A stretch of 64,000 bases of DNA. It comes from Gemmatimonadales bacterium. GTDB taxonomy: Bacteria > Gemmatimonadota > Glassbacteria > GWA2-58-10. Shown here piece after piece: positions 1 through 50,890 of the stretch. Below the pieces are notes generated by a model. It made no database searches, was not told the DNA's origin, and worked only from the letters and a program-made list of their open reading frames with translations. Where the stretch lies: NCBI GenBank assembly GCA_024278175.1, contig JAJRTS010000003.1, positions 1 to 64,000 of the forward strand, read 5' to 3'. Each line of letters begins with the position of its first letter. Positions within the stretch are counted from its first letter, which is position 1. The translations under genes and the position numbers were made by a program.

Positions 1-130
1 CCTCTGAATTTGAATACCTCGAATAAATTGCATGTGGCTCTGGTAATCCGGAGGCCACCAATAGCAGACTGGTTGGATTCAAAGTCCCGATAAAGAAAAA
101 ACACCTTTTACCCTTGACCACGCACATAGC

Positions 131-342
131 AGCGTGTTGAAGTATTCAAAAGTATGGGCATCCGGTTGTCAAGGGCCGTTTTCCGCTATTACAGCCCGAA
201 ATGGCGTGAGCGATGCAACTGCCTGACATAACATAAGTAACGGGCTCAGCAAAAGAAACGGCTTGCCTTGCCCTTGACAACCAACAGCGCAAAATGTTTC
301 ATTTGCGGGCGTTGAACGTTTTATTTCAACGCCCCTCTAACA
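131..342. repeat. Structured dispersed repeat, copy A (~212 bp)
   Basis: Aligns almost ungapped with 50678-50890 (roughly 85% identical by eye). Contains GGTTGTCAAGGGC (164-176) / GCCCTTGACAACC (270-282) and hairpin GGGCGTTGAA (307-316) / TTCAACGCCC (325-334). Confidence 0.9.
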
Positions 343-448: not shown

Positions 449-2647
449 TTACATTATTTTCAATCTGTCAGCCAGGCGGGTGTATCTGAACTGGACGCGA
501 TTGTTCTCCAGTGCCTTTTTCAGGGATGCCGGATCGCAAATGACCACGACCAGGCTTTTGCCACGGGAAATGGCGGTGTAGAGCAGATTGCGCTGCAACA
601 TCACGTGATGCTCGGGTTGCAGGACCAGCAGCACTGCCGGGTACTCGCTGCCCTGGCTCTTGTGGACAGTCACCGCGTAGGCCATGTTCAAATCGTCGAG
701 TTCCATCCCCTCATATGCCACCGGCCGCCCGTCGAAATCCACCAGCACGGTCTGATTATCGGCGTTGGCGGCCAGAATGCTGCCCACATCGCCGTTGAAC
801 ACATCCTTTTCGTAGTCGTTGCGAAGTTGCATCACGCGGTCGCCTACCCTGAAGCCGCCCCGCGCGAAAGAGATTTTAGCTCCGTGGGGATTGAGCCGCT
901 CCTGAAGGGCCTTGTTCAACTCGCGGGTACCACACTCCCCGCGGTTCATCGGCGTGATAACCTGCAACTCTCTGGCGGGGTCAATCCCGAAGCGCGCGGC
1001 CAGGCGGTCGGCGGCCAGCGTTACCAGCATTTCCCGGGCGCGGGAGCAGTCGCGCTGGTTGACAATTAAGAAGTCGTTCTCGCCGGGCGTGAGCTTCCCG
1101 CCTGCCCCGGCGGAGTCATCGAGCGGAGGAGCGCCCTCGGGCATCTTTCCCTCGCGGATCCGATGGGCGTTGGTCACAATCCGGCTGCGCCCGGCCTGAC
1201 GGAAAATCTGCTGCAGACGGAACGTGGGCACCCGTCCGCAGGCGATCAGGTCGTCCAGCACGCGTCCTGGCCCGATAGAGGGCAACTGGTCCGCATCTCC
1301 CATCAGCACCAGCAGCGCGCCGTCGGGAATGGCCTCCAGCAGGCTGGCCATCAACTGGATATCGACCATCGAGACCTCGTCGATCACGAACATGTCGCCC
1401 TTGAGCCGCCGCTCGTCGTTATGCAGGAACGCCCCCTCGGCGAAACTCCAGCCCAGCAAGCGATGGATCGTGGAGGCCTCGCAGCCGGTGGCTTCGCTCA
1501 TCCGCTTGGCGGCCCGGCCCGTGGGAGCGGCCAGCACGGCACTCATCCCACGCTCGGCGGCGAGCAACACCAGCGCCTCCACAAGTGTGGTCTTGCCGGT
1601 GCCCGGCCCGCCGGTGATTACGCTGACCCCGGCGCTGAAAGTGCCGAGCAAAGCCTTTTTCTGCTCATCGCTGAGCTCGATACTCCGCTCCCGCCCGTAT
1701 TTTTTCAGCGTGTCGTATATCTGCTTCGCATCGACCTGGAACGCCAGGCCCGGCTGAGCCGTCAGGCGCACGATATTCTCGGCCACGGTCACCTCGGCCC
1801 AGAAACAATCCGAGGTATATACATGCTCGCCGTCCTCGCCGCGCTCCACTTCCAGACGGCCCAGATCGGCCAGCCGTCTCAGCACCGGTTCGAGCGTTTC
1901 CGCTTCCACGCAGAGCAGCTCGGCCGCGCGCTGGAGGAACTTGCCAAGCGGCAGGCTGGTGTGTCCGCGCTCGGCGGCCAGCTCCCCGGTGTAGACCAGA
2001 CCGCTCTCCAGGCGGGCGGGGTTGTCGGCGGCGAACCCGAGGCTGCGGGCGATCCTGTCGGCGGTGGCGAACCCGATGCCGCGAACCTCGCGGGCCAGGG
2101 CGTAGGGATCGCGGCTGACAACCTCCACTCCCCGCTCGCGGTAGCGGCGATAGATCCGGGCGGCAATCGCCCCGCCGATTCCGTGGCTTTGCAGGAAAAT
2201 CATCAGCCGGCGGATATCGCGCTGCTGACCCCAGGACTCGCAAATCAGGGCCACTTTTTTCCTGCCCAGTCCGGATACTTTCCTCAACTGCTCGGGGTTG
2301 TTGTCGATCACATCGAGGGTTTTCCTGCCGAACTTTGCGACGATCCTCCCGGCGGTCACCGGCCCGATCCCCTTGAGCAGGCCACTGCCCAGGTAGCGCT
2401 CGATACCCTGTTCGGTATCAGGATGAACGTACTCGAACGACTCGATCCCGAACTGTTTGCCGAAACGGGGATGCTGTTTCCACTGGCCGCTCAGGCGCAG
2501 GGTTTCGCCCTCGCTCACACCGGAAAGGTGGCCGACAACGGTGACGCTTTCGCCCTGACCCTCCAGGTAAAACCGCGCCACGGTGTAATCGTTTTCCTCG
2601 TTACGGTAGGTTACCGCTTCAAGGTATCCATCTATTTTAACTGGCAA
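449..2647 (-). CDS. recD2: RecD2-like SF1B DNA helicase
   Basis: Walker A GGPGTGKTT, VIDEVSMVD, C-terminal AVTVHKSQGSEYPAVLL and YTAISRGK; N-terminal HhH-type region as in RecD2/TraA. Confidence 0.93.
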   Translation of the reverse strand: MPVKIDGYLEAVTYRNEENDYTVARFYLEGQGESVTVVGHLSGVSEGETLRLSGQWKQHPRFGKQFGIESFEYVHPDTEQGIERYLGSGLLKGIGPVTAGRIVAKFGRKTLDVIDNNPEQLRKVSGLGRKKVALICESWGQQRDIRRLMIFLQSHGIGGAIAARIYRRYRERGVEVVSRDPYALAREVRGIGFATADRIARSLGFAADNPARLESGLVYTGELAAERGHTSLPLGKFLQRAAELLCVEAETLEPVLRRLADLGRLEVERGEDGEHVYTSDCFWAEVTVAENIVRLTAQPGLAFQVDAKQIYDTLKKYGRERSIELSDEQKKALLGTFSAGVSVITGGPGTGKTTLVEALVLLAAERGMSAVLAAPTGRAAKRMSEATGCEASTIHRLLGWSFAEGAFLHNDERRLKGDMFVIDEVSMVDIQLMASLLEAIPDGALLVLMGDADQLPSIGPGRVLDDLIACGRVPTFRLQQIFRQAGRSRIVTNAHRIREGKMPEGAPPLDDSAGAGGKLTPGENDFLIVNQRDCSRAREMLVTLAADRLAARFGIDPARELQVITPMNRGECGTRELNKALQERLNPHGAKISFARGGFRVGDRVMQLRNDYEKDVFNGDVGSILAANADNQTVLVDFDGRPVAYEGMELDDLNMAYAVTVHKSQGSEYPAVLLVLQPEHHVMLQRNLLYTAISRGKSLVVVICDPASLKKALENNRVQFRYTRLADRLKIM

Positions 2648-3203: not shown

Positions 3204-3248
3204 TTTTTACCACACTTTCGCTATTTTTCAACACGCTTTTAGATTCAG

Positions 3249-4794: not shown

Positions 4795-4870
4795 TGGTGG
4801 AGCAGATCGGGATCGAACCGACGGCCTCATCCGTGCGAGGGATGCGCTCTCCCAGCTGAGCTACTGCCCC
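4795..4870 (-). tRNA. tRNA-Ala(CGC), CCA encoded
   Basis: Reverse complement GGGGCAGTAGCTCAGCTGGGAGAGCGCATCCCTCGCACGGATGAGGCCGTCGGTTCGATCCCGATCTGCTCCACCA; anticodon loop CTCGCAC; G3:U70 acceptor pair. Confidence 0.95.
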
Positions 4871-24806: not shown

Positions 24807-24881
24807 GCCCCTGTAGCTCAGTGGATAGAGCATCGGATTCCGGTTCCGGGTGCGCTGGTTCGATTCCAGTCAGGGGTACCA
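24807..24881 (+). tRNA. tRNA-Arg(CCG), CCA encoded
   Basis: GCCCCTGTAGCTCAGTGGATAGAGCATCGGATTCCGGTTCCGGGTGCGCTGGTTCGATTCCAGTCAGGGGTACCA; anticodon loop TTCCGGT. Confidence 0.94.
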
Positions 24882-48180: not shown

Positions 48181-48465
48181 CGTAACTCCCCGAACAAAAC
48201 CAACGGACGTGCGCGACGCCATGTCATCACTTCGCTGATACGCTTATCTACATAATCGCTTCGTTGCCCGCTGGCAAGTATTTATGCATCCACACCGTCA
48301 TTCGACACAAATTCAACCGCATGCGGCTCTAACCAGCGCCGGCAAGGTTGGCGTTTAATTCCCCGCCGCCGGCTGCCTTTAACACCCGCCCGTTACCCTT
48401 GCTCTTGTTTTTTCAGCTTTCCCGAGTTATCTTCAGCCATAGCCGCACATTGGCGGCTCACATAT

Positions 48466-48622
48466 CCAGCAGTGCTTTTTCTTGCAAGGGAAGACGGGTA
48501 ATCAATCCCGCGCTGACGTGCAGCCGTATGGAGCAACTTATGGGTCGGAGCCGGTCACTGTCCGTATCGGATGGGAAGGCCGGTTCTCTTGTGATGGCCC
48601 GCTCCAGAGCCGGAAAACCTTG
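48466..48622 (+). ncRNA. Cobalamin riboswitch (AdoCbl class)
   Basis: GGGAAGACGGGTAATCAATCCCGCGCTGACGTGCAGCCGTATGG ... GCCGGTCACTGTCC ... GGATGGGAAGGCCGG ... TGATGGCCCGCTCCAGAGCCGGAAAACC matches the conserved B12-box landmarks in order. Confidence 0.92.
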
Positions 48623-48676
48623 GGAAAAAGCGATGCGCTTTCCGTACCTTTCACGTTTTTTGAAGGAGGAAGTGCC

Positions 48677-50671: not shown

Positions 50672-50677
50672 TCTAAA

Positions 50678-50890
50678 AGCGTGTTGAAATATTCGAAAGT
50701 ATGGGCATATGGTTGTCAAGGGCCGTTTTCCGCTATTCAAACCTGAAATGGCGTGTGCGATGTAACTGACTGGTATAACTTAAGTAACAGGATCAGCAAA
50801 AAAAACGGCTTGTCTTGCCCTTGACAACCAGCCGAGCAAAAATTTTCACCACAGGGCGTTGAATGTCTTTATTTCAACGCCCCTCTAACA
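50678..50890. repeat. Structured dispersed repeat, copy B (~213 bp)
   Basis: Aligns with 131-342. IR 50711-50723 / 50817-50829 and hairpin 50854-50863 / 50873-50882 are both retained. Confidence 0.9.

Follow-up and report, generated by a model that had tools for sequence, protein, structure and literature searches.

A dispersed intergenic repeat in a Glassbacteria genome is very probably a family of non-autonomous DNA transposons

The question raised by this locus is what kind of element lies behind two similar intergenic segments, 131-342 and 50678-50890, in the window (the whole 64,000-nucleotide stretch of DNA analyzed). A pairwise alignment runs over their full length with 86% identity, and copies A and B do not differ in the 13-base arms (GGTTGTCAAGGGC/GCCCTTGACAACC) or in the 3' hairpin (GGGCGTTGAA/TTCAACGCCC), as the preliminary description had observed when it proposed either a MITE-like element or a family of structured RNAs. 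The element is very probably a non-autonomous DNA transposon (MITE) of ~207 bp. Its edges were redrawn from the target duplication, which places copy A at 130-336 and copy B at 50677-50884, and the features in the window are as follows.

126-129, plus strand: left flank 4-mer of copy A, ATAG, at the expected position of the target duplication
130-336, plus strand: copy A of the putative MITE, 207 bp, with edges set by the conserved ends in family alignments
131-145, plus strand: left terminal inverted repeat of copy A, AGCGTGTTGAAGTAT, conserved across genera
164-182, plus strand: left arm of the internal palindrome of copy A, GGTTGTCAAGGGCCGTTTT
183-254, plus strand: variable middle cassette of copy A, type I, the type found in 91 of 96 own copies
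255-282, plus strand: right arm of the internal palindrome of copy A, GAAACGGCTTGCCTTGCCCTTGACAACC, with the conserved CTTGCCTT bulge
307-334, plus strand: right-end hairpin of copy A, GGGCGTTGAA...TTCAACGCCC, its outer arm forming the right terminal inverted repeat
337-340, plus strand: right flank 4-mer of copy A, CTAA
3210-3237, minus strand: possible remnant, a left end on its own, AGCGTGTTGAAAAATAGCGAAAGTGTGG, preceded by CTAA and located shortly before a start codon
50673-50676, plus strand: left target duplication of copy B, CTAA
50677-50884, plus strand: copy B of the putative MITE, 208 bp, with co-directional genes on both sides
50711-50723, plus strand: left arm of the internal palindrome of copy B
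50817-50829, plus strand: right arm of the internal palindrome of copy B
50854-50882, plus strand: right-end hairpin of copy B
50885-50888, plus strand: right target duplication of copy B, CTAA

Copy A lies 131 bp from the contig end and, in agreement with its earlier placement, just past the 3' end of recD2 (449-2647, minus strand), from which it is separated by ~110 bp. The left flank of copy A (window 1-130) recurs identically where contigs C112 and C84 end, followed each time by a AGCGTGTTGAA end. The possible remnant at 3210-3237 is weak by nhmmer (E=0.07), with an exact match to the 15-bp end. The window also holds a cobalamin riboswitch (Rfam RF00174, 42.6 bits) at 48462-48642, ~2 kb upstream of copy B, and two tRNA genes at 4798-4870 (minus strand) and 24807-24878 (plus strand).

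The preliminary description counted two copies and proposed a search of the genome and its relatives together with an inspection for target-site duplications and covariation. The count of two does not hold, as a sequence-only model built from 40 copies gives at least 150 matches with E values down to 7e-57 in the own genome (G000, 4.18 Mb in 113 contigs). Copy A as the query recovers at least 40 scored copies there, the best of 167 candidates; a degenerate core pattern has at least 39 matches and its reverse has 0, and the 3' hairpin pattern has at least 51. Full-length copies with both flanks were recovered to the number of 108 distinct ones from the own genome and 35 from relatives. The own-genome copies are dispersed with unrelated flanks, and the family makes up roughly 0.7% of the genome. 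With ~150 copies so distributed, the probability that a single intergenic region was segmentally duplicated by chance to give the pair in the window is negligible. An ORF heuristic places each of the 39 testable own copies between genes. In the frame of the element the genes around these copies are co-directional in 28 cases (16 in one orientation and 12 in the other), divergent in 7 and convergent in 4, and the orientation of insertion relative to the genes is neutral. Some contigs end within copies, indicating that the repeat breaks the assembly, and the family accounts for several of the contig breaks.

Among the 60 relatives whose genomes were searched, homologous families are confined to the same bacterial family. 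Matches number 7 in the same-genus relative and at least 39, 5 and 1 in three other genera of the family, with none in one further genus; the 55 genomes from elsewhere in the phylum have none. One of the relatives used below, G003, is a Candidatus Glassbacteria MAG (JAFGTO01). The viral contigs, phages and plasmids searched gave no matches. A Spirochaetaceae contig matching a 20-base arm pattern was set aside as a chance match, the remainder of the element being absent from it.

Read inward, the ends of the element are AGCGTGTTGAAAWAT and AGGGGCGTTGAAATAA, a pair of imperfect inverted repeats that are alike at ~11 of 16 positions and conserved across genera. The borders are the same in every alignment, with YTAR-M-AGCGTGTTGAAAWAT on the left and TTCAACGCCCCT-YTAR on the right. 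Equal left and right 4-mers occur in 29 of 92 own copies, where shuffling gives a mean of 6.9, and among the relatives in 17 of 35, where it gives 3.8; 0 of 10,000 shuffles came as high in either set. Agreement clearly exceeds expectation at bases 1 and 4 and does so slightly at the central TA, which hardly varies, with little or no excess outside the YTAR frame. A 4-bp YTAR target duplication is statistically solid in the own genome and in relatives, with the exact duplication gone in ~2/3 of own copies; copy B retains CTAA on both sides, and copy A has the unequal flanks ATAG and CTAA.

The element is also seen to be present or absent at corresponding sites. Copy B is missing at the orthologous intergenic site of the congener G001, which has 71 bases compared with 275 in the window, and both flanking coding sequences have their counterparts on a single G001 contig (aligned at 75% and 70%). 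Conversely, the G001 copy L134, found between two genes, is absent from the own genome, in which the junction of these genes is contiguous as AAATCTAAGGACGG; at the L134 site the same sequence is split as AAATCTAA-element-CCAAGGAGCGG, corresponding to a CTAA duplication and one later change. These empty sites are direct presence/absence evidence of mobility. A candidate empty site for another G001 copy (L129) in contig C32 gave an unconvincing alignment and was not used. The element shows what defines a MITE, being short and non-coding with inverted ends, a target duplication, dispersed intergenic copies and presence/absence between genomes, and at 207 bp it is too short for a transposase gene. 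The perfect hairpin at the right end and the presence of solo hairpins of 27-36 bp resemble what a single-strand derivative of the Y1 type (IS200/IS605-type or REP-type) would have. Y1 elements are not known to make a target duplication, whereas in this family the left and right 4-mers are correlated and an empty site shows the duplication; the left end, moreover, has no such hairpin, and a Y1 derivative is extremely unlikely.

Conservation within the MITE is uneven. Genera share the ends, both arms (GGYTGTCAAGGGCCGTTTCC and GGAAACGGCTTGCCTTGCCCTTGACARCC) and the hairpin at the right end, and differ in the spacers and the middle (~75 nt); the added G003 copies were picked by an exact right arm, so that only the left arm is unbiased for them. 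The middle is exchanged for unrelated sequence between genera and falls into cassette groups of 91 own copies, 4 own with 4 G001 copies, 59 G003 copies and 4 G003 copies, besides singletons; many indels distinguish the copies in this region. The second cassette group includes at least one own copy (L206) with a 3' spacer of the first group's type, showing that copies are mosaic. The complementarity of the arms is maintained between genera by changes of T:A to C:G, and in a few copies of CCGTTTCC/GGAAACGG to CAGTTCCG/CGGAACTG. In the arms 95% of cells pair, and both-sided changes number 25 compared with 8.2 in shuffles (0 of 500 as high).

These compensatory changes between genera, together with the folding of single copies better than shuffles (z -2.8 and -4.7), speak for a family of structured non-coding RNAs, riboregulators or sRNAs, repeated by chance and retained for an RNA function. 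However, a DNA palindrome predicts the same covariation of the arms, whose two helices have few G-U pairs as expected of a DNA palindrome, and DNA-level symmetry explains the complementarity between genera equally well. The middle shows no Watson-Crick covariation, as its strongest linked column pairs in the all-pairs analysis are mostly non-Watson-Crick, i.e. they record subfamily history. No family reaches its gathering score in an Rfam scan listing hits up to E 10, and the neutral orientation, the unrelated middle sequence in different genera, the private mutations that the conserved parts still take and the target duplications and empty sites typical of a transposon further argue against an RNA family, which is very unlikely. 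The RNA half of the original alternative is therefore not supported, and its MITE-like half is strongly upheld by the copy number, inverted ends, YTAR duplication and empty sites. Hand-picked hairpins in the middle, which seemed to covary in a few copies, were unsupported by the all-pairs test.

The timing of conservation in the MITE can be read from the tree of own copies. Changes on internal and terminal branches number 78/427 in the conserved parts versus 642/1327 in the variable parts (p=4e-15), a test in which mosaic copies blur the tree and recombination and poor resolution inflate the terminal changes. In the conserved parts the changes are mostly private, with shared variants depleted more than private ones, and singletons per column in the arms are not below those in the middle. 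The conservation fits a need for transposition rather than host function, as expected if selection acts when the element moves and resident copies drift. Movement of the element probably depends on the strongly conserved internal palindrome and on the hairpin at its right end.

A MITE with an added role for its transcript or central hairpin, such as promoting its own transposition or, as in Correia elements, RNase III processing of host mRNA, is suggested by arms near-invariant across genera unlike the spacers and middle, by the 28 of 39 copies within co-directional gene pairs and by the reported precedent that RNase III cuts Correia-containing transcripts (PMC10969869). Against this, the conservation pattern suits a need at transposition and not during residence, and the scarcity of G-U pairs in the arm helices is that of a DNA palindrome; an added function of this kind is rather unlikely. 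It is also doubtful, to a slightly greater degree, that the palindrome, with its interchangeable ~75-nt cassettes inside, works as an active device needed for moving, either a structured transcript or a site resembling an enhancer; if true, the MITE would carry a cis or trans mobility module of its own, beyond a mere pair of ends. A promoter and terminator scan of the element performs no better than on shuffles.

To mobilize the MITE, an IS5-type DDE transposase acting in trans would recognize the terminal GTTGAAAWA-type repeats, excise the element and insert it at YTAR sites. The internal palindrome or right-end hairpin may serve in binding the transposase or a host factor or in folding of the end complex, and after insertion each copy would mostly decay. 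The mover is probably an IS5-type transposase. IS701-type elements may use YTAR too, so the IS5 assignment is one that we only infer. YTAR is the target motif of IS5, and the IS5 family (NCBIfam NF033578, NF033580) shares with the MITE a YTAR 4-bp target duplication (PMC10359306). Nine contigs of the own genome end in C-terminal fragments of multi-copy IS5-family elements matched by the IS5_3 model; eight of the nine abut CTAR/YTAR (GAAACAGCTT-CTAR at three contigs and GGATAAGTT-YTAR at five of the other group) with the one-base spacing of the MITE left end, so the genome contains multi-copy IS5-family elements that use this target. The loci concerned (L313, L317, L320, L322 and L324-L328) represent two multi-copy IS5-family insertion sequences cut off by contig ends. 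An intact IS5_1 transposase of 449 amino acids has perfect ends, AGGGTCTACTGAAAAA, that resemble the right end of the MITE, AGGGGCGTTGAAAAA, with a GAAAAA tract at the same depth as in the MITE. The IS5-family ends (AGGGTCTACTGAAAAA, AGAAGCTGTTTCATAA) are similar and not identical to those of the MITE, which further differs from the IS5 family in having no transposase ORF and a hairpin as one end. A search of six genomes of the family with PF01609, NF033580 and NF033578 found no autonomous element bearing the ends of the MITE, so we infer a partner, and orphan ends in ~0.88 Mb of sequence led to none. Several orphan left or right ends taken up as partner candidates proved to be short derivatives or remnants. 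An autonomous partner sharing its ends is usual for a MITE but not a requirement, and here the partner may be unassembled, as repeats break this assembly.

Several derivative forms accompany the MITE. Palindromes of ~27 bp, CTAGAAGCGTGTTGAAAAAACACGCTTCTAA, consist of two left ends back to back and are apparently minimal elements, and a shorter subfamily (~150 bp) keeps the ends of the MITE around an internal hairpin of simpler form, CTGTCAAGGGTCAGCC...CTCTTGACAG. Of 143 copies, 6-7 carry an additional right-end hairpin or end directly next to their left end, and none carries one next to the right end. One locus (L294, own-genome contig C107 13077-13466) holds a copy split by a different ~200-bp palindromic insertion with ends CCCGGATTATTCATAAAA.

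Palindromes of ~27 bp: L102 ~450-485, L089 ~410-444 and L106 ~100-135 (own-genome contigs C3, C26 and C84)
Subfamily of ~150 bp: L098 from 1308 on, L288 from 123 on, L289 from 182 on, and L293 (own-genome contigs C86, C50, C53 and C99)
Extra end upstream of the left end: L002, L032, L206, L138 and L149

Correia elements of Neisseria have ~26-bp ends and a TA duplication, and their sequence differs from that of this MITE. They are like it in being 204 bp long, intergenic and hairpin-forming with >120 copies (PMC10969869). Chunjie, a MITE of Geobacter uraniireducens likened here by description, is also similar (178-235 bp, tens of intergenic copies, conserved ends, partial or truncated copies), with fewer copies at 38 full and 57 partial (PMC10969869). 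QMITE2 of Coxiella burnetii, grouped here with REP-like palindromes, resembles it in length (~190 bp), with 78 copies and truncated REP-resembling forms comparable to the solo hairpins here; QMITE2 differs in sequence and host, and sRNAs are reported from it (PMC10969869). No description of MITEs in Glassbacteria was found in the literature searched, coverage of which is incomplete. The kind of element is familiar, and the family, from a barely studied lineage, matches no described family found. The lineage is uncultured, and its MITE family is well resolved. The unusual point of the family is a palindrome kept more strictly between genera than the rest while the middle is replaced, which provides a testable case of selection during transposition acting on the interior of a MITE and not on its ends alone.
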